A stretch of DNA of 64,000 nucleotides, taken from NCBI RefSeq assembly GCF_030036535.1, contig NZ_CP080388.1, positions 496,001 to 560,000 of the forward strand. Reading direction: 5' to 3'. Positions 21,557 through 40,340 of the stretch are shown piece after piece; position 1 is the stretch's first letter, and each line of letters begins with the position of its first letter. Position numbers and translations under genes: made by a program. Under the pieces are notes generated by a model. The model saw only the letters and a list, made by a program, of their open reading frames with translations, was not told the origin of the DNA and made no database searches. The stretch is from Agrobacterium cucumeris. GTDB lineage: Bacteria > Pseudomonadota > Alphaproteobacteria > Rhizobiales > Rhizobiaceae.

Positions 21557-21703
21557 GCTGGCTTTGTCTTCCTGTCTTTCACTCCGGACATATGTTGACC
21601 GGATTACTCAACAAAAAGACGATTGCCTCGGCAATTTTTTTCAGGCTTTCGGAAGAAATTTTATAAATCACTGAAAATAAATACGTTTTTGTTTCAGAAG
21701 GTT

Positions 21704-23740: not shown

Positions 23741-24002
23741 AAAAACACATGACCGGCGGGATTGTTTCTGCCTATGCCCGCGCAAATAATCAGTTTTGTC
23801 AGAGGGATAAATCGAGGTCCGGCGTGGGACGATAGATTGGTCGTGGCCAATCAGCAAACACAGTCTTAAGGGGCTCGCGCCTCCCGCCAAAACCTTGGGC
23901 CTTCTGAAGATTGAATCCAGCCGTTGTCGATCGGTCTCGTGGGCAGTCCCCAGGGTGACGCCTGCGGATCGCCGACACGGCAATCATGAGGACAAGCACA
24001 TT

Positions 24003-25112
24003 ATGGCGAATACCCTAGATACGCGCTTTCGGCCGTTCAAGGTAAAGATGAAAAAGCAAGAGAGCACCACGATCTCGTCTTTTTACCTCGCACCCGTCAA
24101 CCCCGAGGATTGGCGTCCTTTCGAAGCGGGCCAGTTTCTCACGATCCAGATACCCAATCCCGAAGGTGGTGAACCGCTTATCCGGAACTACACCGTGTCG
24201 TCAGGACCGGGTGACGTCGGGATTTATCGCATCACCGTCAAACGGGAGGCGGCCCTGACGCCGGATATGGCCGATGGTATCGCGTCGTGCTGGCTGCATG
24301 ACACGGTCGAAGAAGGCATGGTGGTGCATATCGACAGGCCACGCGGCGCCTTCAAGCTCGACAGGGCCAGTCAGCGACCGGTCATTCTGCTATCCGGTGG
24401 CGTCGGGCTGACGCCGACCGTTTCGATGTTGAAGGTACTGGTTGCGGAAAGCGACCGGCCCGTCTGGTTCGTGCATGCCTGCGACGGGGCCGCCACCCAC
24501 GCGCTACGCGATGAAATACGGGCGCTCGCCGAACAGCGCGACAATGTTCATGTGCACACCTGTTATCGCTTTGCGACCGATGAAGACGCGAAGGCGGGGC
24601 TGTTCCATTCCACCGGCTTCATCACACGTCAGACCTTGCAGTCTTGTCTGCCGCTGGACGACTACGAGGTCTATATGTGCGGCCCGCCGCCTTTCATGCA
24701 GGCGATGTATGATCTGCTTCTTTCACTCGGGTTGGAAAAGAGCAGGATCGCCTATGAGTTCTTCGGACCCGCATCGCTGCTTTCACCATCGCCGCCGAAG
24801 ACGGATGCAAATCCCAGCCCAAATAGCGCTGCCGCTCCGCAAGCAGCCAAAAGCACTGGCATCGAGATCGTCCTTGGAAAGTCAAATGCCAGGTTCGAGT
24901 GGGATGCAGCCTCGGAATCGATCCTGAGTTTTCTGGAAAATCAGGGTGTCGAACCTGCATTTTCATGCAGGGCTGGCGTTTGTGGAAGCTGCGTTCAGGG
25001 CCTCGTTTCCGGCGACGTGGAATATGTGGAAGAGCCGCTGGATGACGTGCCGGCCGGCCAGGTTCTCCTCTGTTGTACCAAACCCGTCAATTCGGTCGTG
25101 CTCGACCTCTGA
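24003..25112 (+). CDS. FAD/NAD(P)H oxidoreductase with C-terminal 2Fe-2S ferredoxin domain (Rieske oxygenase reductase)
   Basis: 369 residues from the ATG at 24003. A ferredoxin-NADP reductase-like FAD domain (FNR motif IRNYTVSSGP at about residues 59-68) is followed by an NAD domain (LLSGGVGLTPTVSMLK, YMCGPPPFMQAM). A linker leads to a plant-type ferredoxin domain with CRAGVCGSC and a distal Cys. Layout matches electron-transfer partners of Rieske oxygenases or flavohaemoglobin-like reductases. It heads a plus-strand operon with the aminotransferase and FAD-linked dehydrogenase. The VanA-like oxygenase at 34171-35211 is its probable partner, although 9 kb away. Confidence 0.88.
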   Translation: MANTLDTRFRPFKVKMKKQESTTISSFYLAPVNPEDWRPFEAGQFLTIQIPNPEGGEPLIRNYTVSSGPGDVGIYRITVKREAALTPDMADGIASCWLHDTVEEGMVVHIDRPRGAFKLDRASQRPVILLSGGVGLTPTVSMLKVLVAESDRPVWFVHACDGAATHALRDEIRALAEQRDNVHVHTCYRFATDEDAKAGLFHSTGFITRQTLQSCLPLDDYEVYMCGPPPFMQAMYDLLLSLGLEKSRIAYEFFGPASLLSPSPPKTDANPSPNSAAAPQAAKSTGIEIVLGKSNARFEWDAASESILSFLENQGVEPAFSCRAGVCGSCVQGLVSGDVEYVEEPLDDVPAGQVLLCCTKPVNSVVLDL

Positions 25113-25154: not shown

Positions 25155-26276
25155 ATGGTCGAACCACTCAGACTCAATCCGTACGTTGCGGAACTCCCGC
25201 CCTATAATGCCGGGATGAACATTGCGGTGGCGCGCAGCAAGACGGGTTTGACCGATATTGCAGCGCTTGCCAGCAACGAGAACCCCTATGGCTGTTCGCC
25301 AAAGGTGGCCGCGGCGCTGGCCGACCTTGATCCATCCCGTTATGCGGACCCCACCTGTGTGATCCTGCGGGACGCGCTGAGTAAAAAGCTTGGTGTTGAC
25401 GGCGACCGAATTGTCATCGGAAACGGCTCCGAAGAGATGATCGCTGCGGTTTGCCGCGCGGTTCTGCGTCCGTTTGCCACCGTGGTGGCAATGACGCCGG
25501 GCTTCGGTCTCCATGAAATCGAGCCCAGAGCAAACGGCGCGCAAATCGTCAGGATACCGATGACGAAAGACCTGCGGTTCGATCTTGAGGCGATGACGAT
25601 TGCCCTGCGAGACAAACCGTCAATATTCTTCATCTCTTCGCCTTCAAACCCGGTCGGGCCGGCGCTGGAGCGGGATCAGCTCTCACGCCTCATCTCGGCT
25701 GTTCCGAATAAGACATTGCTTGTTTTTGATGAGGCGTATTTCGAATTCTGTGACGAGAATATGCCCGACGGGCTCGAGCTTTTGGCGAAGAGCGCGATTT
25801 CCTATGTCGTACTGCGAACATTCTCCAAGGCCTACGGGCTGGCTGGATTGCGCGTGGGTTATGCCGTTGCCTCCGATGCACGGCTGGCGCAGGCCATGTC
25901 ATCGGCAAAAACACCGTTCAACGTCAATGCCGCCGCACAATTGGCAGCGGTTGCCGCCCTTGAAGACGAGGGCTGGATGCGCGGTTCGGTGGCGAAGGTT
26001 ATTGGGGAACGCAGACGCATGGCTGAGGCAATGACATCGCTTGGCCTGTTCGTTCCGCAATCCCGTACCAATTTTCTGTTCATCGACATCGGTTGTGACA
26101 GCACGATCGCTTTCGATCATTTTCTGTCGCATGGCGTTATCGTCAAGCCCTGGAAAGAACCGGGATTTACAAGCTTTATCCGTGTGACCGTTGGACTGCC
26201 CGCGCAAAACGATCGTTTTCTCGACGCATTGCGCCTGCTGAAAGAAAAGCTGCTTGAGGCGAACGTCCCGTCATGA
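25155..26276 (+). CDS. Histidinol-phosphate aminotransferase-family PLP enzyme
   Basis: 373-residue class I/II PLP aminotransferase of the HisC subgroup. Landmarks are ASNENPYGCSPKVAAAL near residue 38, SSPSNPVG (Asn contacting PLP), VFDEAYFEF (Asp) and the PLP-lysine motif RTFSKAYGLAGLRVGY. It is unlikely to be the housekeeping HisC, given its location between an oxygenase reductase and a 2-hydroxyacid dehydrogenase. It probably transaminates the amino-acid product of the demethylation pathway to a 2-oxo acid; an imidazole-like or other aromatic side chain is possible. Overlaps the next gene by four bases. Confidence 0.87.
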   Translation: MVEPLRLNPYVAELPPYNAGMNIAVARSKTGLTDIAALASNENPYGCSPKVAAALADLDPSRYADPTCVILRDALSKKLGVDGDRIVIGNGSEEMIAAVCRAVLRPFATVVAMTPGFGLHEIEPRANGAQIVRIPMTKDLRFDLEAMTIALRDKPSIFFISSPSNPVGPALERDQLSRLISAVPNKTLLVFDEAYFEFCDENMPDGLELLAKSAISYVVLRTFSKAYGLAGLRVGYAVASDARLAQAMSSAKTPFNVNAAAQLAAVAALEDEGWMRGSVAKVIGERRRMAEAMTSLGLFVPQSRTNFLFIDIGCDSTIAFDHFLSHGVIVKPWKEPGFTSFIRVTVGLPAQNDRFLDALRLLKEKLLEANVPS

Positions 26277-27694
26277 TCGAGCAAAATGCCCATGCGACAG
26301 GGGATTTGCCCGTGACGTTCCTCAGGGATATCGAAACGACCATCGGCCTTTCCCACCTGAAACAGGGGGATGCCATCGCCAATCTCGATTATGGCGTAAC
26401 CCCCGCAAATTTCGGCGCGGACGCGGTGGCTTTCCCGTCATCGACACAGGAGATCGCCTGCATCATCAGAAGCGCCGCTGCGCATGGCGTTCCCGTTGTG
26501 CCGCAGGGCGGTCGAACCGGGCTTGTCGGCGGCGGTGTTTCCAGTCCCGGTCAGATCGTCGTATCCACCACCCGGCTCAATCGGATCGTTGAAATTTATC
26601 CCGATGAGCGGGTTGCTGTGGTTGAGGCGGGCGTGACGCTACAGGCATTGCAGGCGGCCGCGTCGGAATATCAGCTTGAGCCGGGCATCGACCTGCCGTC
26701 GCGTGGTTCCGCCACGATCGGTGGCATGGTTTCGACGAATGCCGGCGGGATTTCGGCTTTTCGTTATGGGGTGATGCGCCATCGCGTCCTCGGTCTGGAG
26801 GCCGTCCTGCCGGATGGCTCGATTTATTCCGACCTGACACGGGTGGTGAAAAACGTTGCCGGCTACGATCTCAAGCATCTCTTCATCGGGGCTGAGGGAA
26901 CGCTTGGCATCGTCACCAGGGCGGCGATCAAGCTGGAACCCGTTCCCGCAGCGACGGCCACGGCGCTTTTCGGGCTCCCCTCGGTGGAAGCGGCTCTTGA
27001 GGCGACCAAACTCGGGCTCAGCGTCGAGTACGGCCATATGCGTGCGGCGGAAGCCATCTGGAACTCGTTTTTTTCCCTGACATCGGGCGAGCATCTCTGG
27101 TCAGCGACCGACTATTACCCCGACTATCCCGTCAATCTCATCATGGCACTTGGCGGAGGGGACGAGGAACAGCTGCAGACGCAGCTTGGCCGGATATATG
27201 AGGAACTATATGAGACCTATCCCGAGATGTCCGCCGTCGTTGCAACATCGCAGACGCAGGAAGCGGAGTTGTGGCGTCTCAGGGAAGATACGGACCTCAT
27301 CTATCGCAGATATCCGGCCGCGCCGTCTTTTGACGTCTCCGTCCCACTGTCGCGCATCGAAGCGTATGTGACCCGTTGCATACCGGAACTTCAGTCAATC
27401 GATCCAACCTTCGATCCCTACCTTTTCGGGCATATTGCCGACGGCAATCTTCATATCGTCCTGAACGCGGCAGGTGCGGATCTGACGCCTGAAAAGGCCG
27501 CCGCCGTCGAAGCTGTTCTCTACCGTGACCTGACGCAATCGGGAGGCTCGTTCTCGGCAGAGCACGGCATCGGCTCCAAACGCGTTCACGCGCTGCGTGC
27601 GACAGCCGACCCCGTAAAATTTGCCCTGATGACCCGGATCAAGGCCGCCATTGATGCAGGACACACCCTGAACCCCGGCAAGGTCACCGGCTGA
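26273..27694 (+). CDS. FAD-binding oxidoreductase, GlcD/D-2-hydroxyacid dehydrogenase family
   Basis: 473 residues. The PCMH-type FAD domain contains VPQGGRTGLVGGG at about residues 79-91 and the long LPSRGSATIGGMVSTNAGGI. The C-terminal FAD-oxidase domain has GHIADGNLH (metal-binding His) and SAEHGIGSKR. These are the marks of D-lactate, glycolate and D-2-hydroxyglutarate dehydrogenases. Its ATG overlaps the aminotransferase stop (ATGA). The pair could interconvert an amino acid, its 2-oxo acid and its 2-hydroxy acid. The substrate is unknown. Confidence 0.9.
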   Translation: MIEQNAHATGDLPVTFLRDIETTIGLSHLKQGDAIANLDYGVTPANFGADAVAFPSSTQEIACIIRSAAAHGVPVVPQGGRTGLVGGGVSSPGQIVVSTTRLNRIVEIYPDERVAVVEAGVTLQALQAAASEYQLEPGIDLPSRGSATIGGMVSTNAGGISAFRYGVMRHRVLGLEAVLPDGSIYSDLTRVVKNVAGYDLKHLFIGAEGTLGIVTRAAIKLEPVPAATATALFGLPSVEAALEATKLGLSVEYGHMRAAEAIWNSFFSLTSGEHLWSATDYYPDYPVNLIMALGGGDEEQLQTQLGRIYEELYETYPEMSAVVATSQTQEAELWRLREDTDLIYRRYPAAPSFDVSVPLSRIEAYVTRCIPELQSIDPTFDPYLFGHIADGNLHIVLNAAGADLTPEKAAAVEAVLYRDLTQSGGSFSAEHGIGSKRVHALRATADPVKFALMTRIKAAIDAGHTLNPGKVTG

Positions 27695-27752: not shown

Positions 27753-28325
27753 TCAGTTCGCCAGAACGCCGTTCTTCTTGGCCGTCCAGGTCGCGATATA
27801 GTCCATCAGGGCGGGAGACAGGCAGTCGTAGGGTTCAAGGCCGCTATCCTTCAGCTTGGCGCGTACCCCGGACATCTTGTCTGGAGAAAAACCCGCCTCA
27901 ATGATGGATGACACGAAGGCGGCGAAGCCCGGTGCTGCCCAACCCTTTTCCTCGAACCGCTCAGGGTGAATGAATGCCAGTCCCTTGAAGGGATGATCAC
28001 GCTCCACGGGGCCGTACATGTGGACGCCGCATTGAGTGCAGGCATGCCGCTGGATCAGCGCGGATGGATCGACAACAGCCAGTTTGTCGCCGTGTTCCAA
28101 AACTTCCACACTCTCGGTCGGCGCAACCGCGACCACGGAGAACAGCGATCCCTCCGGTTTCCAGCATTTGGTGCAACCACAGGCGTGGTTGTGGGCAATG
28201 TCACCTTTAACCCGGAGTTTGACCGGCCGGGATGTACATGCACACACCAGTGTTCCGCCTGAGAAGGCTGTATCGGTTGCTCGATAGCCCGAGTCGACAG
28301 TCGGATGAATGGCAATCATCGTCAT
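27753..28325 (-). CDS. gfa: S-(hydroxymethyl)glutathione synthase / formaldehyde-activating enzyme
   Basis: 190 residues from the ATG at 28325, with GGAGG upstream; the frame extends another 32 codons without support. Zinc cysteines typical of Gfa are visible in [16 protein letters not shown] and [12 protein letters not shown]. It accelerates the reaction of formaldehyde with glutathione, feeding the dehydrogenase encoded immediately upstream in the same operon. Length matches the family. Some related GFA-domain proteins do not act on formaldehyde, but the frmA neighbour supports this call. Confidence 0.9.
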
Positions 28326-28346
28326 GATAAGGTTCCTCCCTTTTTT

Positions 28347-28367
28347 GCCGGCGCGAAGTGCGCCGGC
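28347..28367 (-). other. Stem-loop between frmA and gfa
   Basis: GCCGGCGC-GAAGT-GCGCCGGC: perfect 8-bp GC-only stem in the 64-bp intercistronic gap. On the transcribed strand it is followed by A residues, so it is probably an mRNA processing or stability element rather than a terminator. Confidence 0.45.
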
Positions 28368-28389
28368 TATCTTGCATGGGGCATCACGC

Positions 28390-29517
28390 CTAGTAGACCA
28401 CGACGCCGCGGATGCTCTCACCCTTGTGCATCAGTTCGAAGCCCCTGTTGATGTCTTCGAGCGGCATGGTGTGTGTGATCATCGGATCGATCTGGATTTT
28501 GCCTTCCATGTACCAGTCGACGATCTTCGGCACGTCGGTGCGGCCGCGCGCGCCGCCAAAGGCGGTGCCCATCCAGTTGCGACCGGTGACCAGCTGGAAC
28601 GGGCGGGTCGAGATTTCCTGGCCGGCGCCGGCAACGCCGATGATGACCGACTTGCCCCAGCCGCGATGCGAGGCTTCCAGCGCCTGGCGCATGACCTTCG
28701 TGTTGCCGGTGCAGTCGAAGGTGTAGTCAGCACCGCCGATCAGGTCGCCATTGCGCTTCGTCATGTTGACGAGATAGGGCACGATGTCGTCACCGATATC
28801 CTTCGGATTGACGAAGTGGGTCATGCCGAACTTCTCGCCCCAGGCCTTGCGGTCATTGTTGATGTCGACGCCGATGATCATGTCGGCGCCGGCAAGGCGC
28901 AGGCCCTGCAGAACGTTAAGGCCGATGCCGCCGAGACCGAAGACGATGGCTGTGGAGCCAATCTCGACCTTGGCGGTGTTGATGACCGCACCGATGCCGG
29001 TGGTGACGCCGCAGCCGATGTAACAGACCTTGTCGAAGGGCGCGTCGGGATTGATCTTGGCGAGCGCGATTTCCGGCAGGACGGTGTAGTTCGAGAAGGT
29101 CGAGCAGCCCATGTAGTGGTGGATCTTGTCCTTGCCGATCGAGAAGCGCGAGGTACCATCCGGCATGACGCCCTGACCCTGGGTGGCGCGGATGGAGGTG
29201 CAGAGATTGGTCTTGCGCGAGGTGCAGGAATAACACTCGCGGCATTCCGGCGTGTAGAGCGGAATGACATGGTCACCCTTCTTGACCGAGGTGACGCCGG
29301 GGCCGACATCGACGACGATACCGGCACCCTCATGGCCGAGGATGGCCGGAAACAGACCTTCCGGATCGGCACCGGAAAGCGTGAAATCATCGGTGTGGCA
29401 GATGCCGGTCGCCTTGACCTCAACAAGTACTTCGCCGGCGCGCGGACCTTCCAGCTGAACGGTCATGACCTCGAGCGGTTTTCCTGCCTGAATGGCAACA
29501 GCGGCGCGTACGTCCAT
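28390..29517 (-). CDS. frmA: S-(hydroxymethyl)glutathione dehydrogenase / class III alcohol dehydrogenase
   Basis: 375-residue zinc alcohol dehydrogenase. The catalytic zinc region has [19 protein letters not shown] and [12 protein letters not shown]. The structural-zinc cysteines are in [17 protein letters not shown], and the NAD site is [14 protein letters not shown]. Length and motifs match glutathione-dependent formaldehyde dehydrogenase. It oxidises S-hydroxymethylglutathione to S-formylglutathione. No S-formylglutathione hydrolase gene (frmB/fghA) is in the window. It sits downstream of an ABC importer and a Rieske oxygenase, suggesting removal of formaldehyde from oxidative demethylation. 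Confidence 0.95.
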
Positions 29518-29654: not shown

Positions 29655-30341
29655 TCAGCGCGCCGCATGCCGCATCATATGTCGCTCGGCCACGCGGATG
29701 AGCATCACAAGGGTGAGATTGATGACGAGGTAGATCGCACCCGCCAGGGCGAAGACCTCAAAAATCGCGAATGTCTGGCTCATCAGACGTTTTGCATATC
29801 CGGTGATCTCGAGAACCGTGATTGTCGAGGCAAGGCTCGTCCCCTTGACGACGAGGATAAGCTCGTTGCCGTAAGCTGGCAGCGCCTGACGAATGGCGAG
29901 CGGGAATTCGATCCGGCGGAAGCGCAGAAATGGCGACATTCCGGTGGCTTTGGCCGCTTCCTTGAGACCCACGGGAACGGAGAGCAACCCGCCACGCAGA
30001 ATTTCGGATGTGTAGGCCGCCGTGTTCAGAGCCATGGCCATGACCGCACAGCGCGTGCCGTCACTGACGATCCACCAGGTGATCGCATTGTTTTTGATGA
30101 AGCCGAGCTGGCCGAGCCCGTAATAAAACAGGAACAGCTGCACCAGAAGCGGCGTCCCACGAAAAACCATGCTGTAATATTTCGCAAACCCCGAAACGAA
30201 GCGGTTTTCGGACAGTCTCATCAAGGCAAGGCCAAGACCGAGGTTGAAACCGATCGCGACGGATATCACGGTTATCGCCGCCGTTGTCGAAAGACCTCTT
30301 AAAAGGAACGGCAACGATGTTTCCCAAAATTCGATATCCAT
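29655..30341 (-). CDS. Polar amino-acid ABC transporter permease, HisM type
   Basis: 228-residue inner-membrane permease of the His/Glu/Gln/Arg/opine family. The N-terminal membrane region is followed by NRFVSGFAKYYSMVFRGTPL, and the coupling loop is near LKEAAKATGMSPFLRFRRI. It is the last of the importer genes; permease (2) ends four bases upstream of its start. The family includes opine (NocM/OccM-like) transporters, so an amino-acid conjugate or betaine-like substrate is possible. Confidence 0.92.
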   Translation of the reverse strand: MDIEFWETSLPFLLRGLSTTAAITVISVAIGFNLGLGLALMRLSENRFVSGFAKYYSMVFRGTPLLVQLFLFYYGLGQLGFIKNNAITWWIVSDGTRCAVMAMALNTAAYTSEILRGGLLSVPVGLKEAAKATGMSPFLRFRRIEFPLAIRQALPAYGNELILVVKGTSLASTITVLEITGYAKRLMSQTFAIFEVFALAGAIYLVINLTLVMLIRVAERHMMRHAAR

Positions 30342-30345
30342 CGCG

Positions 30346-31053
30346 TTATGTCCTTGCCCTAAGTCTCACCATACGCTCCACCCTGTCAAAGCCGGCCTGG
30401 CTGATCAGGGTGATAGCGAAGTACACGGAAGCTGCGATAAGGAAAAAAATCAGCGGATTGCGTGTGCTGCCAGCACCAACGGAGGCGGTACGCATCAATT
30501 CCTGCAATCCGACGACCGATACCAGCGCCGTGTCCTTGATGGTTGTTTGCCAGACATTATTCATGCCGGGGATGGCGATGCGCAGCATTTGCGGCAAGAT
30601 GATGCGCCTGAAGATGCGGCGTCCGGGAATTCCCAAGGCCCGCGCCGCCTCGATATGTCCTGCCGGGATGGAGGCCAGTGCGCCCCTGATGACCTCGGTC
30701 GAATAGGCGCCCGAGATCGTTCCGACGGCAACCACGGCGATGATGAAGGCGTATCCGCTGTCGGCAAGAGCCGCATATCCGAACGCCGTGGCAACCTGCG
30801 TGACGAATTCCACCGAGGAAAAGAACAGCAGATAGATGATCAGCAGTTCAGGCACACCGCGCACGAGCGAAGTATAGGCGTCCACCACAAGTGTCAGCGG
30901 AAATATCCGCGCCCACTTGATAACCCCGCACAGGGTCCCGATCAGCGCACCGACAACGATGCTCACCGTGCCGACGGCAATGGTTATCGCCGCGCCCTGC
31001 AGAATGGCCCTTATCCACCCACCCTGCCAAACCAGCATCAGACTAGACTCCAT
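30346..31053 (-). CDS. Polar amino-acid ABC transporter permease, HisQ type
   Basis: 235 residues from the ATG at 31053; an upstream start 48 bp earlier is less likely. Motifs are SLVRGVPELLIIYLLFF and the coupling loop IEAARALGIPGRRIFRRIIL. It forms the heteromeric pore with the HisM-type permease that follows directly. The binding-protein gene lies 138 bp upstream. Confidence 0.92.
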   Translation of the reverse strand: MESSLMLVWQGGWIRAILQGAAITIAVGTVSIVVGALIGTLCGVIKWARIFPLTLVVDAYTSLVRGVPELLIIYLLFFSSVEFVTQVATAFGYAALADSGYAFIIAVVAVGTISGAYSTEVIRGALASIPAGHIEAARALGIPGRRIFRRIILPQMLRIAIPGMNNVWQTTIKDTALVSVVGLQELMRTASVGAGSTRNPLIFFLIAASVYFAITLISQAGFDRVERMVRLRART

Positions 31054-31191
31054 GAGACCTGCCCCCAAGTTTTGCTGGCTCTTCCAGCACCTTGCCGGCA
31101 CCGGACATCTTCAGCATTTTCGACCGTGCAAACCCTTAGAGCTTGCGATGGAACGATCGCCCCGCACTCCGGTGGAGAGCGGGGCAGACAC

Positions 31192-31986
31192 TTAGTTACA
31201 AGGGCGGGAGATATCCATTTTGAACCATTTCTGGCTCGACTTTCCAATCGATCCATCGGCAACGAGGTCGCAGAGGGCCTTGTCGATCTTTGCTTTAAGT
31301 TCCGTGTTATCTTTGGCGATGCCGACACCGATGCCTTCACCAAGGGTGGAATCGAATTTGCTCTGGACCTTCACGTCGACAAACTGAAAGTCTTTGCCTT
31401 CAGGCTTGGCCAGAAAATCCTGCAGCGCGGAGGCATCGGCAAATGCCGCCTCGATGCGGCCGCTTGCGAGATCGATCTGCATGTTGTCGAGCGTGTCGTA
31501 AGTCTTGAGATTGGCTCCGGGGATCCGCTTTTCGACGAAGTGGGCGTGTGTCGTGCCAGTCTGAACCCCGATGGTTTTCCCATCGAGCCCCTTCAGCAAG
31601 GCATCGATGTCCTTGATGCCGGCGAGATCCGAGGTCTTGGGGACCAGGAACATGTTCGCCAGTTCGGCATAGCCGACCGAAAAATTGATTTCCTTTTTCC
31701 GATCCTGAGTAATCGACATCCCGGAAATGATGATGTCGAAGCGTTTCGCCTTGAGGGCCGGTATCAGCCCATCGAAGGCCTGCACGACGAACCGACATTT
31801 CATGGCGAGTTTCGTGCATAGTAGATTGCCGACATCCGCATCAAAACCGGTCACCTTGCCGGCGGAATCGGCCATGCTCCACGGCGGATACGCGCCTTCG
31901 GTGCCGATCGACAGTTCACCTTCCGCGGCGTTGGCCGTGCTGACGCCGGCAAGAAGCAGGGCAAGAGACAAAACTTTCAAATTCAT
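31192..31986 (-). CDS. Amino-acid ABC transporter periplasmic substrate-binding protein
   Basis: 264 residues from the ATG at 31986; the signal peptide ends ...GVSTANAA. Family 3 binding-protein landmarks are GTEGAYPPWSMADSAGKVTG, GFDADVGN and FDIIISGMSITQDRKKEI (the Ser/Arg-containing ligand hinge). The mature protein resembles lysine/arginine/ornithine, histidine and opine binders. It sits directly after the DUF2817-ATPase fusion gene in the operon. The exact ligand cannot be read from the sequence. Confidence 0.93.
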   Translation of the reverse strand: MNLKVLSLALLLAGVSTANAAEGELSIGTEGAYPPWSMADSAGKVTGFDADVGNLLCTKLAMKCRFVVQAFDGLIPALKAKRFDIIISGMSITQDRKKEINFSVGYAELANMFLVPKTSDLAGIKDIDALLKGLDGKTIGVQTGTTHAHFVEKRIPGANLKTYDTLDNMQIDLASGRIEAAFADASALQDFLAKPEGKDFQFVDVKVQSKFDSTLGEGIGVGIAKDNTELKAKIDKALCDLVADGSIGKSSQKWFKMDISRPCN

Positions 31987-32060: not shown

Positions 32061-34037
32061 TCATAAAGTCCGCGACAGGAACTGACGCAGTCGTTCCGAT
32101 CGCGGATTGCTGAACAATTCCGCAGGCGTACTCTCTTCCTCCACCTTTCCCTGGTGCAGGAACAGAATCTTGTGCGATACCTCGCGCGCAAACTGCATTT
32201 CATGCGTGACGAGGATCATGGTGTTGCCCTCTTCCGCCAGCTGGCGGATCACCCGCAGGACTTCGCCCACGAGTTCCGGGTCGAGAGCCGATGTCGGCTC
32301 ATCGCAGAGGATGACTTTCGGCCGCATGGCAAGCGTTCTGGCAATGGCGGCGCGTTGCTGCTGGCCGCCGGAGAGCTGACCGGGATACTGGGCATGTTTT
32401 TCCGAAAGCCCGACCTTCTTCAGCAACTGATGGGCGTGTTCGATCGCATCATGACGACGTTCACCCAGCACATGCACCGGCGCCTCGATGATGTTTTCAA
32501 GCACGGACATATGGGGCCAGAGATTGAAGTTCTGAAACACCATACCGACGCGAGCGCGAATACGCTCGACCTGGCGCATGTCGGCGGGATGAGAGCGGCC
32601 GTTCCCTGCGCTCTTCATCCGTATTTCCTCACCATCGATGACGATCGTGCCGCTGCTGGGCTGTTCGAGCAGGTTTATGCAGCGCAAAAACGTGCTCTTG
32701 CCGGAACCGGACGATCCGATCATCGAGACGACTTCGCCGGGGTCGGCGCTCAGCCCGACACCTGACAGCACCTCGTGCGTGCCGAAGCTTTTATGCAGAT
32801 CGCGAACTTCAACGGCTGGTCGGTCATGACGCTTGATGTTGACCGGGATCGCCGGTGGCCAGTTGATGACGGACGCAGGAGCGGCCGCTGTTGTGATTTC
32901 TCTCTCCCTATCCGGCCCGGCGACCGAGGCGAGCGCCGTCAGTGCGCGGTCGAAATATCGCAGGCTTGTCCCAAGACAGTTCTGCTGCCATTCGGGATCA
33001 ACCGGAATGAAGGCTGTGCGCAGCGTCGTCTTGATTTTCCGGCCAAGCGGAGATTCGATATTTCCGAACAGATGCAGCCAGTTATCCGCCTGCACGGCAT
33101 CCATCACAACAGGGCCTTCAAGGGTTCCGCATTCGATCACGAGCGGCAGCACACGGCTGTTCGGCAGGGATTTGCGCACAGCTGCCGAGACATAACCCGT
33201 GGCGGTCGCGGCAATGCCGGTATCTGTCGTTGCACCCTTGCCGGTCATCACGACCGCCAGCGCATGCCCATAGGTTTTCCTGCCCCATTCCAGCCCGTCA
33301 TGGTCCTCTTCGGCGACGCTGAGCAAAGCGGGATATCCGTAAGGTCCGGCACCGGTATGCAGATCGAAGACGATGACATCGGACGCACCGCTGACGAAGG
33401 TATTCAAAACATCCCTGAGAGTGTGGTTCGACCATGTCGGACCGCTGCCGCCGTAAAATAGTCCGTCCGGACAGTCATATTGGCCTGCTTCAACGATTGC
33501 AGCGATGCCGGCATGACCACCCGCTGCGGCTTTGGCGTCTTTCAGTTTTTGATCGGCACGATCACGATCAGGCCCATCCCACTCGGCGCAGGCAAAGGCC
33601 TCGTGAAGCGCCGCATATCGCTCGTTTCGCGGAACGGCGGCTTCCCAGTCAATGAAATTGCGGTTGAGATCGACATTGTCTTCGTTGACCCGACGGCTCC
33701 ATGCCGTCCCCCAGGGATTGATCAGGTGAATGATCACGACAGCCGTATCGGCGGCGAGGGGCAACGGATTGTTCGCAGAGAGCCATTCGGCCTGGCATGC
33801 CGATCCGAATTGCCCCTCCACCCCGTGGGTGCCGGACAGGATGACAAGCTTTTTCGATGCATTGCGTTCACCGAGATAAGCAACATCGGTAAAAAGCGGC
33901 TCGCCGCCGGGGCCATGCAATGGATGTTTGTATTCAAACAGGGCAGCGCCGGACCGGCGTGCCGCGGAGAGAAAACGCTGTCGCAGCACAGTATAGTCCA
34001 CAGAATAGAGCTCAGGCTGCCTGATGTGGCGCATCAA
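32061..34037 (-). CDS. Fusion: DUF2817 peptidase-like domain + amino-acid ABC transporter ATPase
   Basis: 658 residues in one uninterrupted frame. Residues about 15-370 form a DUF2817/M14-like zinc hydrolase domain: LSGTHGVEGQFGS gives an HxxE zinc pair, DLNRNFIDW is the Asn-Arg motif of carboxypeptidase-like enzymes, and VFDLHTGAGPYG gives the third histidine. Residues about 405-658 are a HisP/GlnQ-type ATPase with Walker [10 protein letters not shown], signature LSGGQQQR and Walker [15 protein letters not shown] short linker (SVINWPPAIPVNIKRHDR) joins them. The importer has no other ATPase gene nearby, so the fusion must energise it. It may hydrolyse the imported amide or ester as it enters. 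I know of no described fusion like this. Confidence 0.85.
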   Translation of the reverse strand: MMRHIRQPELYSVDYTVLRQRFLSAARRSGAALFEYKHPLHGPGGEPLFTDVAYLGERNASKKLVILSGTHGVEGQFGSACQAEWLSANNPLPLAADTAVVIIHLINPWGTAWSRRVNEDNVDLNRNFIDWEAAVPRNERYAALHEAFACAEWDGPDRDRADQKLKDAKAAAGGHAGIAAIVEAGQYDCPDGLFYGGSGPTWSNHTLRDVLNTFVSGASDVIVFDLHTGAGPYGYPALLSVAEEDHDGLEWGRKTYGHALAVVMTGKGATTDTGIAATATGYVSAAVRKSLPNSRVLPLVIECGTLEGPVVMDAVQADNWLHLFGNIESPLGRKIKTTLRTAFIPVDPEWQQNCLGTSLRYFDRALTALASVAGPDREREITTAAAPASVINWPPAIPVNIKRHDRPAVEVRDLHKSFGTHEVLSGVGLSADPGEVVSMIGSSGSGKSTFLRCINLLEQPSSGTIVIDGEEIRMKSAGNGRSHPADMRQVERIRARVGMVFQNFNLWPHMSVLENIIEAPVHVLGERRHDAIEHAHQLLKKVGLSEKHAQYPGQLSGGQQQRAAIARTLAMRPKVILCDEPTSALDPELVGEVLRVIRQLAEEGNTMILVTHEMQFAREVSHKILFLHQGKVEEESTPAELFSNPRSERLRQFLSRTL

Positions 34038-34170: not shown

Positions 34171-35211
34171 TTATTCTGCGGCAGCGACCATGCTCACAGT
34201 CTCGCTTTCGATCATCTGCGAAAGTTTACGCCGGAACCGCAGGGGGCCAACGTCGATCTTCAGATCAAGGTTGGGGGTCTGCTTGTTGGCAATACCGTGA
34301 TGAACCGCTTCCAGCACGATACGGTCCTCTTCAAACGCACCACGAACGGAGGTTGCAAAACGCGCCGAAACATCCGGGTCGTCGGGTGCGAAATTGCGCA
34401 TCTGGAACCAGTAATATTTCGTGCGGTTCTCATCCACCGGTGTCATGAAGTTGTAGCTGTCCATCAGGAACGTATTGTCCGGCAATTCCCGGCCCTCGCC
34501 ACCGGAGCCGGACGGTGCAAAGATCGCCTTGATGATGGCGTTGCTGGGATAGCGAACCTCGTAATGCTGTTTGCGGTCGCACGTCCCTTCAAACTGCAGA
34601 AAGGGGGCGTAGAAAGGCGCGGGTTCCGAATCCAGCATCCACCGCCAGACCACCACGCCATCGCTTTTCACCGTCGTTTCCAGCGGCGTTTCTTCGCAGG
34701 CCGAACTGGCGAACGAACTCTGATGCACCCAGGCAACGTGGGACGGATCAAGCAGATTGTCCGTCATATAGAGGTAATTGCAGTTGATCGTCATGGACTC
34801 GCCGCGATTGACGCCCCAGGACGGATCGCCGAAATGCTCGACATGGAAAATCTCGGCGGGATCGGCTTTCGCAGCGTCACCCATCCAGATCCAGACAAGT
34901 CCGTAACGTTCTTCGACCGGATAGGACCGCACGCAGGCCACATGTGGAATACGCTCTGCCCCCGGTACGCGGGTGCAGGCGCCCGAACAGTCGAAGGTCA
35001 GGCCATGATAACCACATTCGACATCATCGCCCTTGATGCGCCCCATGGATAAGGGCAGCTTGCGATGGGGACAGGCATCTTCAAGGGCTGCCAGCTTTCC
35101 ACTCTGCAGGCGATAAAGGACGATATTTTCGCCGAGCATCGTAACGGGTGTCAGGTCGCGGCCGATTTCATGATCCCATGTCGCGACGTACCAGGCATTC
35201 CTGAGAAACAT
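34171..35211 (-). CDS. VanA-like Rieske [2Fe-2S] oxygenase (oxidative demethylase family)
   Basis: 346 residues from the ATG at 35211, with GGGGAAG before it; 25 upstream codons of the frame lack a ribosome site. The N-terminal Rieske domain has CPHRKLPLSMG and CGYHGL (C-x-H ... C-x2-H). The mononuclear iron motif is DNLLDPSHVAWVH. The opening FLRNAWYVATWDHEIG is typical of the vanillate O-demethylase/dicamba demethylase group. Such enzymes remove O- or N-methyl groups as formaldehyde, which fits gfa and frmA downstream in the same operon. Electrons would come from the reductase at 24003. The substrate is unknown. Confidence 0.9.
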   Translation of the reverse strand: MFLRNAWYVATWDHEIGRDLTPVTMLGENIVLYRLQSGKLAALEDACPHRKLPLSMGRIKGDDVECGYHGLTFDCSGACTRVPGAERIPHVACVRSYPVEERYGLVWIWMGDAAKADPAEIFHVEHFGDPSWGVNRGESMTINCNYLYMTDNLLDPSHVAWVHQSSFASSACEETPLETTVKSDGVVVWRWMLDSEPAPFYAPFLQFEGTCDRKQHYEVRYPSNAIIKAIFAPSGSGGEGRELPDNTFLMDSYNFMTPVDENRTKYYWFQMRNFAPDDPDVSARFATSVRGAFEEDRIVLEAVHHGIANKQTPNLDLKIDVGPLRFRRKLSQMIESETVSMVAAAE

Positions 35212-35295
35212 TTTTCTTCCCCTTCTTCCAGCTTCCAGTGAGAGAAGTATTTTCTTTGTGGCGCTGGCCGACAAGCGGATTTCCATTGCGTTCTT

Positions 35296-35337: not shown

Positions 35338-36264
35338 TTGGCCATGCCTCCCCTCCATGCCCTGCAAGCTTTTGAAGCCGTTGGAAGGTGCGGTACGATG
35401 AGGACCGCTGCAAAAGAGCTTGGCGTGACACCCAGCGCCATCAGCCAACAGGTGCGCAAGCTTGAGGATCATCTCGGCGTCACGCTTCTTGAGCGCGTGG
35501 GACGCCGTGTGGAGTTGACGTCATGGGGCGTCCTTCTTCACAAGGAGGTCGCCAAGGGTTTCAATCAGCTTCATCATTCCGTCGATGTGCTTGAGCGGGC
35601 GCGGAGCCAAACCGGCATTGTGCTCACCGCTCTCAGTTCGGTCGTCAACAAATGGATCGGCCGCAAAATCTTCGATTGGCAGGCTCTCTACCCCGAAGCC
35701 AATGTTCGCATCATCGGCAAGGACGACGAACCCAGCCTCACAGCCGGGCAGAGCGATTTCCGCATAACCTATGGAAAGCGCGCAGAAGTGCACGCCCATT
35801 TCGCTCCTCTCTACACGGACTGGGTAGTTCCCGCCTGCTCGCCCCGTCTGCTGGGCGACCGAACTCTGGCGACCGCCGCGGACGTTCTCAAATTCCCTTT
35901 GCTCAACATCGAGTGGGAATCCCATTACAGCCGGCCGCCACAGTGGAGCGAATGGGCGCAGCTCGTTGGTGCGACCGTGAATGAAAGGCTCTCAAGTCTG
36001 TTTTTCGCACTTTCGAGCAACGCAATCGACGCCGCCGTCAACGGCCACGGCTTCGTTCTGGCTCAGCTTTCTATGATCGAGGACGAGTTGGAGGCAGGCA
36101 CTCTTATCGTGCCGTTTGATATTCGCCTTCCACTTCCCGAGAGTTATTATCTGGCCTGGGATCGCTCCGCATTTGAGAAACCCTATGGAAGAGAATTTCA
36201 TATGTGGGTGATGGGGATTGCGAAAAAGCAATCCGTCATCTCATCTCCAGCGGGCAGCGCCTGA
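35338..36264 (+). CDS. LysR-family regulator (GcvA-like), divergent from the Rieske operon
   Basis: 308 residues. A TTG at 35338 lies 8 bases after GGAG and is a better start than the ATG at 35344. The winged helix has HALQAFEAVGRCGTMRTAAK and GVTPSAISQQVRKLEDHLG, typical of the GcvA subgroup, followed by a full effector domain. Divergent placement and the paired operators make it the likely regulator of both the Rieske/importer operon and the reductase operon. The effector is probably the imported substrate or its product (inferred). Confidence 0.92.
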   Translation: MAMPPLHALQAFEAVGRCGTMRTAAKELGVTPSAISQQVRKLEDHLGVTLLERVGRRVELTSWGVLLHKEVAKGFNQLHHSVDVLERARSQTGIVLTALSSVVNKWIGRKIFDWQALYPEANVRIIGKDDEPSLTAGQSDFRITYGKRAEVHAHFAPLYTDWVVPACSPRLLGDRTLATAADVLKFPLLNIEWESHYSRPPQWSEWAQLVGATVNERLSSLFFALSSNAIDAAVNGHGFVLAQLSMIEDELEAGTLIVPFDIRLPLPESYYLAWDRSAFEKPYGREFHMWVMGIAKKQSVISSPAGSA

Positions 36265-36291: not shown

Positions 36292-37221
36292 CTATTGCGG
36301 CCTTTCTGTTTGCCCATTTGGAAGTGTCATCCTCAAGCGGTGAATATGGGCAGCCCCGATGCCGCAGCAGCCGCCGATGATCGTCGCGCCGGCCTCTGCC
36401 CAGGAGCAGGCATAACGCGAATAGACATCGTCATTCAAATCCTTGCGCGTGTCGTGCAGGCCCTCATTGGCGGCCGCTTCACCCTGTTCGCCTTCGAAGG
36501 CATTGGCGTAGACACCGATTTCGAGGCGGACATTCTTCTCCCGGAAGACACGCGCTGCCACCTCTACGGCCCCCTGCATGACCTCGGGCTTGCTGCAATT
36601 GAACAAAATGGCTTCGGCACCCGATGAAGCCGCCCAGGAGGCGGCATTTTCAACAGTTTCGGTTGACCGGAGTTTCGGTTCGTCGCCGCTTATCGCTGCC
36701 TCGCCATCCTCCAGTGTAAACGAAATCCAGAGCGGTTTGCCGGTTGCCGCCACCGCTTCGCGGACGGCGTCCGCCTCGGCGATCAGGCTCAGCGTCTCGC
36801 CGAGCCATACGTCGACGAAGGGCGCAAGGTTTTCGACGAGCACTTTCAGATAGTCCTGCACTCGCGAAGGCTGAAAATTCTGCGGCTCGTAGGAGCCGAA
36901 GATCGGCGGCAGCGAACCGGCAACCAGCACTTTGCGATCCGTGACCGCATCGGCTGCTTCCCGCGCCAGACGGCCTGCGAGGCGGATCAGCGCTGGCCCC
37001 TCGTTCCGGAACCTTTCCTCACCGATGTGGAAGGGGACGAGCGCGTAGCTGTTCGTGGTGATGATCTGCGTCCCCGCGGCGATGAATTCCCTGTGAACCT
37101 CGCGCACGATGTCAGGTGAATTCATCAGCGCCAGTGCCGACCATTCAGGCTGCTTAAGCTCGGCGCCGAGCCGCAGCAGCTCGCGACTCATACCGCCGTC
37201 GAGAATTCGTATTGTGCTCAT
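36292..37221 (-). CDS. Homocysteine S-methyltransferase family protein
   Basis: 309-residue TIM-barrel methyltransferase. The N-terminal ILDGGMSRELLRLGAEL stretch is followed by the zinc cysteines in LFNCSKPEVM and the C-terminal GGCCGIG. The family includes MmuM (S-methylmethionine donor) and betaine-homocysteine methyltransferase. It is the last gene of the second amino-acid importer operon, so its methyl donor may be an imported methylated amino acid such as S-methylmethionine or a betaine. It is convergent with the LysR gene, 27 bp apart. Confidence 0.9.
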   Translation of the reverse strand: MSTIRILDGGMSRELLRLGAELKQPEWSALALMNSPDIVREVHREFIAAGTQIITTNSYALVPFHIGEERFRNEGPALIRLAGRLAREAADAVTDRKVLVAGSLPPIFGSYEPQNFQPSRVQDYLKVLVENLAPFVDVWLGETLSLIAEADAVREAVAATGKPLWISFTLEDGEAAISGDEPKLRSTETVENAASWAASSGAEAILFNCSKPEVMQGAVEVAARVFREKNVRLEIGVYANAFEGEQGEAAANEGLHDTRKDLNDDVYSRYACSWAEAGATIIGGCCGIGAAHIHRLRMTLPNGQTERPQ

Positions 37222-37299
37222 GAGTTCATCTCCATTCAGGCTATCGCGCCGTCACCGGCAGCGGGATTTTCAAAACAATGTGGTGGATTGTCCGTGCAG

Positions 37300-37989
37300 C
37301 TAGCGGCGAACCGGCACCTGTGCTTCCAGACCTCGAAAGACACGGGCGATCAAGGCCGTCAGGGCAAGATAGAAGCAGGTAACAACGAGCAGCGGCTCAT
37401 AGACCAGCAGGGTGTCCTGGCGAACCTTGTTGGCCACGGCATAGAGATCCATCACGGTGACGGTGAAGGCGAGCGGCGTCGCCTTTAGCTGCATGATGAT
37501 TTCTCCCGCAATCGTCGGCAGGGCGATGCGAATGGCGCGTGGCAGCCAGATGCGGCGGGTCAGCTTCCAGGGTGAAAGGCCAAAGGCCCGACCGGCCTCG
37601 AGTTCGCCCTTGGGAACGGCAAGCAGCGCGCCGCGCAAGACCTCGGCCTCATAAGCCGCATAATTCAGCGTGAAGCTGACGGCAGCGAAAAAGAAGCCCT
37701 CGCGCAAAATCGGCCAGAACAGGCTCTGGCGAAGCCCGGGAACCATGGGCAGCAGCGAACCGACCCCGTAATAAAGCAGCCAGAGCTGGATCAGCAGCGG
37801 CGTGCCGCGAAAGAAGGTGCAGTAGCCGCGAGCCAAAAACCGCGTCAGCCTGCCGCCGCTGACCTGCGCGAAAGCAAGCCCGATGGCGAGGATGAAGCCG
37901 AACACCACCGAGATCACCAGCAGCGCCACCGTCTGCCACGCACCCGTCAGAAGCAGCGGCCAATAGTTCGGTATCCAGTCAAAACTCAT
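37300..37989 (-). CDS. Amino-acid ABC transporter permease (second system), HisM type
   Basis: 229-residue inner-membrane permease with FLARGYCTFFRGTPLLIQLW and the coupling loop LEAGRAFGLSPWKLTRRIWL. It follows the HisQ-type permease by 12 bp and precedes the homocysteine methyltransferase gene by 78 bp. It belongs to the second, separate polar amino-acid importer. Confidence 0.92.
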   Translation of the reverse strand: MSFDWIPNYWPLLLTGAWQTVALLVISVVFGFILAIGLAFAQVSGGRLTRFLARGYCTFFRGTPLLIQLWLLYYGVGSLLPMVPGLRQSLFWPILREGFFFAAVSFTLNYAAYEAEVLRGALLAVPKGELEAGRAFGLSPWKLTRRIWLPRAIRIALPTIAGEIIMQLKATPLAFTVTVMDLYAVANKVRQDTLLVYEPLLVVTCFYLALTALIARVFRGLEAQVPVRR

Positions 37990-38001
37990 GGGGTGCTTTC
38001 C

Positions 38002-38727
38002 TCAGGCAAGGCGCGGCTGTCCGCGCCGCACCCGTCCTTCGATCATTTTGACGACGACGTTGGAAACGAGCGTGATGGCGAGGTAAAGAAATGCCGACGC
38101 CAGGAAGAACAGGAAGTAATGTTTGGTGCTTGCCCCGGCGAGACGGGTGGCGAGCGCCAGCTCCTGATAACCGACCACCGCGACCAGCGCGCTATCCTTG
38201 GTGACCGACATCCATAGATTGGCAAGGCCCGGCAGCGCATTGGGCAGAAGTGCCGGCAACAGGACCCGGCGGAACCTCAGGACCGGCCCCATGCCAAAGG
38301 CCTTGGCGGCGTCGATCTGCCCGGCGGGGATGGCGAGGATTGCACCGCGCAGCACCTCTGTCATGTAGGCGCCCTGAACGAAACCCAACACGGCGACGGC
38401 CGCGATGAAACCGTTGACCTCGACAGGCGGCAGGTTGAGAGCCGCCAGCAGCCGATTGAGACCATCGGTGCCCGCATAATAAAGCCCGACGATCAGGATC
38501 AATTCCGGAACGGAGCGGATCACCGTCGTATAGAGATCAAGCGGAAGCCGGAGCAAAGGATGACCCGAAAGCTTTCCAAGCGCACCGGCCGTGCCAAGCA
38601 ACAGCCCGATCGCGAAGGCGCAGGCCGAGATGGCGACCGTGGCGACGGCACCTGCCAAAAGCACGCCGCCCCATCCCGGAGGATAGGGAGACAGCAGTTC
38701 CAGAATGCCCTGTTGCGCGTTCGCCAT
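38002..38727 (-). CDS. Amino-acid ABC transporter permease (second system), HisQ type
   Basis: 241 residues with TTVIRSVPELILIVGLYYAG and the coupling loop IDAAKAFGMGPVLRFRRVLL. It lies 11 bp downstream of the binding-protein gene. Together with the HisM-type subunit it forms the pore of the second importer. Confidence 0.92.
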   Translation of the reverse strand: MANAQQGILELLSPYPPGWGGVLLAGAVATVAISACAFAIGLLLGTAGALGKLSGHPLLRLPLDLYTTVIRSVPELILIVGLYYAGTDGLNRLLAALNLPPVEVNGFIAAVAVLGFVQGAYMTEVLRGAILAIPAGQIDAAKAFGMGPVLRFRRVLLPALLPNALPGLANLWMSVTKDSALVAVVGYQELALATRLAGASTKHYFLFFLASAFLYLAITLVSNVVVKMIEGRVRRGQPRLA

Positions 38728-38738
38728 CTGATGACTGC

Positions 38739-39512
38739 TTATTTCGCGCCGTAGATGTCGAAATCGAAGTATTTCTTCGTGATCGCTTCATACTGGCCGT
38801 TGGTGTGAACCTCAGCTATCGCCTTGTTCAGCCTGGCTTTCAGTTCGGTGTCTTCCTTGCGCAGGCCGCCCGAAACGCCGGCTCCAAGTATTTCCTTGTC
38901 ATCGGAAACGTCGCCCATTTTCACGCAGCAATCCTTGCCACCATCGCTTTTCAGGAAGGCGTCGAGTGCCAGTGAATCACCGAAGACATAGTCGATGCGG
39001 CCAGCAGCCAGATCCTGGAATGCCTCATCGAGTGTCTGATAGGTCTTTTCGTCGGCGACGCCGGCAAAATACTTTTTGTAGTACTCAGACTGGATGGTCG
39101 ACACCTGGATGCCGATCGTCTTGCCCTTCACGTCTTCAGCCGCGGCGCCGGGCTTCTGGTCTTTGGGGCCGATCAGCGTGCTTGGCGTGTTGTAATATTT
39201 GTCGGTGAAGTCGATCACCTTCGAGCGCTCCGCCGTGTTCGACATGGACGACCAGATCACATCGAACTTTTTGCTCTGCAGGGCCGGAATGAGGCCGTCC
39301 CAGGAAATATCCACGATGGAGCATTTTTCCTTCATCTCTTCGCAGACCGCGTTCATAAGGTCGATTTCCCATCCGTGCCATGTGCCCGAGGCGTCCTTGG
39401 CGAAGAAGGGCGGATAGGATTCGTTCATGATGCCAAAGCGGACTTCGGCCTGTGCCGTGAAGGCAGACAGCGCAAACGCAGCGCCAGCGAAAAACATGGG
39501 AAGCAGTTTCAT
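38739..39512 (-). CDS. Amino-acid ABC transporter substrate-binding protein (second system)
   Basis: 257 residues from the ATG at 39512; a TTG two codons earlier is closer to AGGAG and is a possible start. The signal peptide is MKLLPMFFAGAAFALSAFTA(QA). The mature N-terminus EVRFGIMNESYPPF and the ligand hinge FDVIWSSMSNTAERSKVIDF are family 3 features. The CCVK segment adds an unusual Cys pair in the second lobe. Specificity is likely for a cationic or methylated amino acid, inferred from the neighbours. Confidence 0.92.
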   Translation of the reverse strand: MKLLPMFFAGAAFALSAFTAQAEVRFGIMNESYPPFFAKDASGTWHGWEIDLMNAVCEEMKEKCSIVDISWDGLIPALQSKKFDVIWSSMSNTAERSKVIDFTDKYYNTPSTLIGPKDQKPGAAAEDVKGKTIGIQVSTIQSEYYKKYFAGVADEKTYQTLDEAFQDLAAGRIDYVFGDSLALDAFLKSDGGKDCCVKMGDVSDDKEILGAGVSGGLRKEDTELKARLNKAIAEVHTNGQYEAITKKYFDFDIYGAK

Positions 39513-39560
39513 TCGCAAGGTTTCTCCTGATGGGTGTTGTCGATGATGGCGGGTTGTGCG

Positions 39561-40340
39561 TCAGTGGGCGATGAGGCCGGTGAATTCCCGGCATCGGGCG
39601 CTGACGGGTGCACCGAATATTTGTTCCGGCGGGCCTTCCTCCTCGACCTGTCCCTGATGAAGGAAGAGAACGCGGTTCGAGACATCGCGGGCAAAGCGCA
39701 TTTCATGCGTGACGATCAGCATGGTTCTGCCCTCTTCCGCGAGATCGCGGATGACTTTGAGAACCTCGCCGACCAGTTCCGGATCAAGCGCCGATGTCGG
39801 CTCATCGAACAGCATGACATCAGGGTCGACGCAAAGCGCTCTGGCGATCGCCGCACGCTGCTGCTGCCCCCCGGAAAGGAAGGCCGGATAGGTATCGCGC
39901 TTTTCGAAAAGCCCAACCTTGTGAAGCAGGGCCTCGGCTTTTTCGACCGCTTCACGCCGCGGCATGCCCATGACATGAACAGGCGCCTCGATGACGTTCT
40001 CCAGCACGGTGCGATGCGCCCAGAGATTGAAGCTTTGAAAGACCATGCCGAGCCCGGTGCGCAGCCGTTCAACCTGTCGCCAGCTGCGCGGCTGCAACCG
40101 CCCGTCGCGACCGGCCTTCAGCGCTATCTCCTCGCCGTTCACAGCAATGCGGCCGCGATCGGGCGTTTCCAGAAAATTGATGCATCTGAGGAAGGTGCTT
40201 TTGCCGGAACCCGAGGAGCCAATAATGGAAATCACATCAGACTTGTGGGCCTGCACCGAAATCCCTTTGAGAACCTGATGCGGGCCGAAGCTTTTGTGGA
40301 GATCTTCGACGCGAAGAGCAGGAAAGGACTGGTCTGGCAT
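39561..40340 (-). CDS. Amino-acid ABC transporter ATP-binding protein (second system)
   Basis: 259-residue HisP/GlnQ-type ATPase: Walker [11 protein letters not shown]-loop [10 protein letters not shown], signature [15 protein letters not shown], Walker [14 protein letters not shown] and switch His in VTHEM. It is the first gene of the operon ATPase, binding protein, HisQ, HisM, homocysteine methyltransferase. It is a close relative of the ATPase half of the fusion at 32061, but without the DUF2817 domain. Confidence 0.94.

Follow-up and report, generated by a model that had tools for sequence, protein, structure and literature searches.

A DUF2817 domain fused to the ATPase of a putative amino-acid importer in Agrobacterium cucumeris and related soil bacteria

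A single open frame joins a DUF2817 domain to a HisP-type ATPase

The window analyzed here is a stretch of 64,000 nucleotides from Agrobacterium cucumeris (contig NZ_CP080388.1, positions 496,001 to 560,000), and on its minus strand lies an operon in which one gene joins a DUF2817 domain to an ATP-binding cassette (ABC) ATPase of the HisP type (Table 1). Positions 32061..34037 form one open frame of 658 codons when counted from TTG 34037, as the initial annotation had described, and both the list of open reading frames (ORFs) and Pfam bear this out. The true start is likely to be ATG 34034, giving 657 aa, because relatives such as P0006 begin one codon later (MRHIRQ..). Pfam assigned residues 11-355 to DUF2817 (PF10994; 321.3 bits and 1.2e-95 for the whole protein, cut-off 23) and residues 425-583 to ABC_tran (1.1e-35); neither a C39 peptidase nor a membrane domain was among the matches of the fusion protein at E<=0.001. 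The N-terminal domain carries HGVE (71-74), DLNRNF (123-128) and DLHTGAG (225-231), all three present as first reported, and the ATPase domain carries Walker A (441), Q-loop (500), signature (555), Walker B (576) and H-loop (610).

Table 1. Features of the fusion operon and its surroundings, in window positions
Feature	Coordinates	Strand	Remarks
DUF2817::HisP-type ATPase fusion gene	32061..34034	-	657 aa from ATG 34034; ORF open from TTG 34037
DUF2817 domain, carboxypeptidase-type (M14-like) fold	32973..34007	-	residues 11-355; profile, fold matches and alignment
Flexible linker (predicted)	32817..32939	-	residues 367-407, about 40 residues; without in-frame ATG/GTG/TTG
ABC ATPase domain, HisP-like	32064..32816	-	residues 408-658; ABC motifs present
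Periplasmic solute-binding protein, family 3 (SBP_bac_3)	31192..31986	-	ORF extends to 32064; profile
ABC permease 1 (BPD_transp_1, nearest ArtQ/HisQ models)	30346..31101	-	profile
ABC permease 2 (BPD_transp_1)	29655..30341	-	profile
S-(hydroxymethyl)glutathione dehydrogenase (formaldehyde oxidation)	28390..29517	-	TIGR02818 above cut-off
GFA-family protein (glutathione-dependent formaldehyde-activating enzyme)	27753..28421	-	ORF coordinates
GlcD-like FAD-linked oxidase, presumed D-2-hydroxyacid dehydrogenase	26273..27694	+	profile
HisC-like aminotransferase	25155..26276	+	profile
FAD/NAD/2Fe-2S reductase	23895..25112	+	presumed Rieske partner; adjoins Rieske gene in most fused relatives
Rieske oxygenase, VanA_C type	34171..35286	-	PF00355 and PF19112 above cut-off; nearest structures 7qwt (GdmA), dicamba O-demethylase
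LysR regulator, divergent	35338..36264	+	profile, locus comparison
Homocysteine S-methyltransferase	36292-37221		in line with second ABC system
Second ABC system, permease	37300-37989	-
Second ABC system, permease	38002-38727	-
Second ABC system, solute-binding protein	38739-39518	-
Second ABC system, ATPase	39561-40340	-

Many rhizobia and soil bacteria related to them share the two-domain architecture, which is both real and conserved. Within the genus, the N-domain was matched in 6/39 genomes (own genome included) at E<=1e-40, and all 6 lie in open frames of 667-681 codons; in a family-level sample 16/394 genomes (own included) matched at E<=1e-100, and 15 of the 16 carriers hold the domain in frames of 671-822 codons. 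In the remaining carrier, L132, the frame has 437 codons and stops within the linker; a six-frame search of its 4140 bases for ABC motifs yielded none, and the fused gene reads as broken there, whether in nature or by the assembly. In a protein database search that scored 7999 candidates under a length filter of 0.55-1.75 x 658 aa, 117 of the 120 matches listed (120 of 1991) hold both Pfam domains, the exceptions being P0020, P0064 and P0074; this share overstates fusion among all relatives because the filter drops unfused relatives with a length below about 362 aa. On annotated plasmids of R. leguminosarum, Shinella sp. and S. meliloti the fusion is a single coding sequence of 1965-1968 bases. 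An assembly or sequencing artefact that deleted a stop between two genes, a concern of the initial annotation, is practically out of the question, because independent copies carry the same fusion, with both domains on a single chain in genomes and metagenomes of independent origin as well as in these plasmid coding sequences. Close relatives are thus fused and not split into two genes.

Loci were fetched from one-per-species genomes with two peptide patterns covering residues 116-123 and 224-231 and were ranked by their match to fused queries. Of 569 loci, the best 80 comprise 25 fused and 55 unfused ones, the former from named alphaproteobacteria and one metagenome-assembled genome named only as proteobacterium, the latter from Pseudomonas, Burkholderia, Caballeronia, Paraburkholderia and Serratia. 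Fused carriers span Rhizobiaceae, Phyllobacteriaceae and Paracoccaceae. At class level, 70/385 genomes match the N-domain at E<=1e-60; leaving the own genome aside, identity is 34-42%, and many of these matches lie in DUF-sized frames and some in longer frames of up to 1137 codons. A quick DUF2817 tree of 53 rows (47 of 81 window and locus sequences plus 6 database proteins, with the pseudomonads thinned by hand and a long-branch warning for L039, L053 and others) places 30 fused N-domains, together with the stand-alone-length P0020 and P0064, and 21 unfused ones on either side of a fully supported branch. Taken as an unrooted split, this would fit one fusion event with rare later breakage. 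An ATPase tree, in which 6 ABC ATPases stand for the many in the genome, has long branches and weak support (81 for the fused set) and does not date the fusion.

An internal restart that yields a separate ATPase was considered and rejected, since a scan of the window's linker for in-frame ATG, GTG and TTG found none, and the linkers of 2/26 fused genes do contain a start codon in frame, each with a 4-base Shine-Dalgarno-like match, but this is not conserved. The dN/dS values between the window gene and six relatives were 0.07-0.18 for the hydrolase domain, 0.02-0.10 for the ATPase and 0.21-0.47 for the linker (saturated comparisons, one for the hydrolase and two for the linker, are left out of these ranges). 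By these estimates both domains are under purifying selection, and the linker is poorly conserved.

A putative hydrolase domain on a probable polar-amino-acid importer

All 40 aligned N-domains (20 fused, 20 unfused) match the DUF2817 profile. The predicted zinc ligands H71, E74 and H227 and each of R115, N125, R126, Y282 and E302 are kept in 40/40, and none of the nine catalytic-type residues examined varies among these members, so the close relatives show no loss of zinc ligands. These residues would correspond to the catalytic and zinc residues of carboxypeptidase A. The invariance of H227 and R116 is partly built in because both lie inside the patterns used to fetch loci. The strict patterns LHTGAG and DLNRN missed L020 and L021, yet H227, N125 and R126 are present in both. 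At the sequence level the N-domain matched solved structures only weakly (best E 0.023) and a fold search was needed; it returned the carboxypeptidase fold, with M14 and AstE/AspA-type hydrolases among the matches listed. The AstE/AspA profile PF24827 gave 24.1 bits with the full protein and 26.3 bits with the N-domain alone, against a cut-off of 25. The N-domain is described here as a putative zinc hydrolase with an apparently intact active site, as first proposed, and we infer that it binds zinc and hydrolyzes an amide bond.

The ATPase half is complete, as the initial annotation had it: the five tested ABC motif patterns are present in 26/26 fused genes and the best match is HisP (structure 1b0u at 60% identity). 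The solute-binding protein (SBP) encoded next probably starts at ATG 31986, leaving a 74-base gap to the fusion gene, as its relatives in L015 (264 aa) and L016 (267 aa) suggest; its ORF overlaps the fusion gene by 4 bases only with an upstream start. Among the 25 fused loci, an SBP gene is present in all and is the next gene in all, the two permeases are present in 24/25 and 23/25, the cluster of separate ATPases has no member, and another ABC-ATPase-like ORF lies elsewhere in the locus in two (L019, L024). The SBP is closest to the nopaline-binding protein (5.8e-52) and then to LAO (5.1e-45). In an alignment of 37 operon-near SBPs, read by eye, R77 and D161 (LAO numbering) appear to be kept in most; in LAO these residues bind the alpha-carboxylate and the alpha-ammonium group. 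The nopaline-binding protein is without the D161-equivalent aspartate. The alignment hints that the ligand carries a free alpha-amino-acid head.

A second complete polar-amino-acid ABC system lies at 36292-40340 on the same strand; its ATPase (39561-40340), 5.5 kb upstream of the fusion, is 63% identical to the fused one. The first description stated that no separate ATPase exists in the operon, which is right, and that the fused protein must be the transporter's motor. Because this second ATPase is present in the same genome, a borrowed motor is conceivable, and the fused ATPase is better called probably the motor of its operon's transporter.

Gene neighbourhood and unfused relatives

Genes for an oxygenase, a reductase, an aminotransferase and formaldehyde oxidation, which the initial annotation had not raised, surround the fusion and bear on the substrate. 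Within 10 kb of the fusion, the 25 fused loci (some on contigs that end early) contain the Rieske gene in 23, the reductase in 22, the HisC-like and LysR genes in 21 each, the GlcD-like gene in 17, an FrmA-like gene in 8 and Gfa in 6. These clusters rest on manual ORF picking, and BLAST at 40% identity corrected HisC from 16 to 21 and FrmA from 5 to 8 of 25, the latter count possibly including other alcohol dehydrogenases. Among solved structures the Rieske enzyme is closest to 7qwt (8.2e-48) and DdmC (6.2e-43). A review that cites work on guaiacol O-demethylation by Rieske enzymes lists 7QWT as GdmA (PMC12445004). A demethylation step in the pathway is likely, because the nearest solved relatives of the Rieske enzyme are known demethylases and formaldehyde genes accompany it in some loci. 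Farther away in the window (18782-22699) lies a TonB-dependent receptor gene with an STN domain, adjoining a FecR-type regulator gene.

In five Pseudomonas loci (L040, L044, L046, L055 and L092) each of these parts has a gene of its own, in the order SBP-permease-permease-ATPase-DUF2817-Rieske-reductase. Like the fused loci, this version brings LysR, SBP, permeases, ATPase, DUF2817, Rieske enzyme and reductase together in one cluster, but the ATPase and DUF2817 are separate and in reversed order, and no HisC or GlcD relative was found in the five loci. Stop loss from the Pseudomonas arrangement was considered as a simple route to the fusion and rejected, because the Pseudomonas ATPase precedes DUF2817, opposite to the order in the fusion. 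Three Burkholderia/Caballeronia loci read Rieske-reductase-DUF2817-SBP, with no relative of the window operon's permeases in the locus; in Burkholderia L084 (7763-13525), where this likewise holds, a gene for an M81 (MlrC-type) metallopeptidase follows the SBP gene. In these more distant relatives among the gamma- and beta-proteobacteria the two parts come from different genes, so the pathway does not depend on the fusion.

A gamma-glutamyltranspeptidase cluster has a member in 33/55 unfused loci, mostly beside DUF2817, and these loci are related and do not count as 33 independent events. The enzyme was identified in L060 (7973-11080), near the unfused DUF2817 gene. On plasmid pB of S. meliloti LMB1 (L141, 3625-9941) the fusion faces genes for a gamma-glutamyltransferase, an alpha/beta hydrolase and an ABC transporter.

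Proposed role and alternatives

The HisP/HisQMP-J, ArtPQMJ and opine (Noc/Occ) importers are alike in kind, given the HisP-nearest ATPase, the SBP near the nopaline-binding protein and the two BPD_transp_1 permeases. ATPases of this class, however, are not known to have more than one domain, and the N-terminal hydrolase here more than doubles their length. M14 and AstE/AspA-type hydrolases, including the cyanophycin dipeptide hydrolase CphZ, differ from the N-domain in sequence (7-17% identity in the structure matches listed, and an M14 score below cut-off) and in that the DUF2817 domain is fused to an importer ATPase. Peptidase-containing ABC transporters (PCATs) are exporters in which a C39 cysteine peptidase is fused to the membrane-spanning half. 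They likewise combine a peptidase with an ATPase within one transporter and couple processing to translocation (PMC13001449), whereas the present fusion belongs to a probable importer, has a putative zinc-type hydrolase and is a chain without a membrane part. PCATs and the ABC domains of C-P lyase are the nearest systems in concept. Public databases name the fused proteins 'DUF2817 domain-containing protein' or 'polar amino acid transport system ATP-binding protein'. A literature search conducted largely outside subscription journals showed, among the matches listed, no importer described with a catalytic hydrolase on its motor, and the sole paper in which it found DUF2817 appears to concern trypanosome transcription.

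We consider it fairly probable that the operon encodes an amino-acid importer with a carboxypeptidase-like hydrolase on its motor, and that this hydrolase opens a conjugate, in many cases a methylated one, after its import and ahead of the demethylation step. The SBP, the two permeases and the fusion ATPase would form a polar-amino-acid-type ABC importer, with a cytoplasmic zinc hydrolase of M14 carboxypeptidase fold tethered by the flexible linker at the N-terminus of the motor. Because a functional importer needs two ATPase domains, two hydrolase domains would sit at the inner mouth of each channel. The cargo would be a small amino-acid conjugate, whose amide (or isopeptide) bond the hydrolase would cleave at the inner face to free the amino acid. 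In most carriers a two-component Rieske oxygenase would then strip a methyl group, the formaldehyde would be oxidized by FrmA/Gfa where present, and the HisC-like enzyme would transaminate the freed amino acid. The tether would hold motor and first enzyme close at a fixed ratio, and a low level of free conjugate would favour uptake; we infer both this benefit and the order of the steps.

Two substrates may be named, and either is at best a doubtful candidate. A methylated dipeptide such as anserine (beta-alanyl-methylhistidine) would account for the hydrolase, the demethylase, the HisC-like enzyme and the presence of the system in P. fragi, P. lundensis and P. psychrophila, which are known from meat. 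A gamma-glutamyl conjugate is the better fit to the SBP residues and to the gamma-glutamyltransferase neighbours. A different side-chain conjugate with a free alpha-amino-acid head is another candidate. There is a precedent for a small isodipeptide, beta-Asp-Arg, cut by M14/AspA-type enzymes (PMC10206079). Among the matches listed, the same literature search showed nothing relevant on methylhistidine Rieske demethylation or on anserine or methylhistidine catabolism, and nothing that joins a Rieske demethylase, an aminotransferase, LysR, an amino-acid ABC transporter and formaldehyde.

Several observations weigh against the proposed role. The profile search suggested at the outset placed the N-domain in DUF2817, and its score with Pfam M14 (PF00246) is 11.6 bits, below the gathering cut-off of 21.6, for which reason the domain is called M14-like and not M14. 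Compared with M14 chains it reaches Foldseek TM-scores of no more than about 0.3-0.5, and together with the bias from the fetch patterns these low values slightly reduce our confidence. In a wider set of 73 N-domains, E74 is absent in 2 and H227, Y282 and E302 in 1 each. The predicted full-length model (pTM 0.70) leaves the mutual orientation of the domains uncertain. FrmA and Gfa lie near only a minority of fused loci, the Rieske gene was not found in two of the 25 (one a 5-kb contig) or within the 8 kb shown of S. meliloti L141, and demethylation is therefore not always part of the pathway. The free alpha-amino group suggested by the SBP residues suits a gamma-glutamyl-type conjugate better than an anserine-like N-acyl amino acid.

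It is quite possible that the fusion merely fixes co-expression, with independent domains, a hydrolase that serves the general cytosol and no effect of the tether. The Pseudomonas clusters of separate genes speak for this, as do the long, flexible and poorly conserved linker and the truncated form and two stand-alone lengths inside the fused clade; yet 15/16 family-level carriers keep the fusion and it is seen in three families, though an operon would already co-express the parts. At the other extreme, import and hydrolysis could be coupled, as the initial annotation suggested: the ATPase cycle could time or stimulate hydrolysis, or the permease could hand the substrate directly to the hydrolase, so that the conjugate is never free inside the cell; we regard this as unlikely, and if true, it would be a vectorial, group-translocation-like catabolism by an ABC importer. 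That DUF2817 is a non-catalytic sensor which regulates the ATPase by binding imported substrate is improbable: accessory domains of importer ATPases such as MetN and NrtC are usually regulatory, but the catalytic-type residues are invariant in the 40 aligned members, fused and unfused alike, and many genomes also encode the domain by itself, in a protein of about 370 aa. It is more improbable still that the ATPase drives an enzyme and not a transporter, like PhnK/PhnL on C-P lyase (PMC9947105). PhnK-C-P lyase complexes (7z19) are among the fold matches of the ATPase, but the ATPase domain is closest to HisP, the SBP gene adjoins every fused gene, permeases accompany nearly all, and separate ATPases of the cluster are missing from these loci.

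If the domain on the importer motor proves active, the family would offer a natural setting in which to test whether uptake changes once the first catabolic enzyme is joined to the motor. DUF2817, a Pfam family of unknown function, would gain a concrete context in small conjugated amino acids, and the operon would point to a possibly uncharacterized demethylation pathway common to rhizobia, Rhodobacterales and some pseudomonads.
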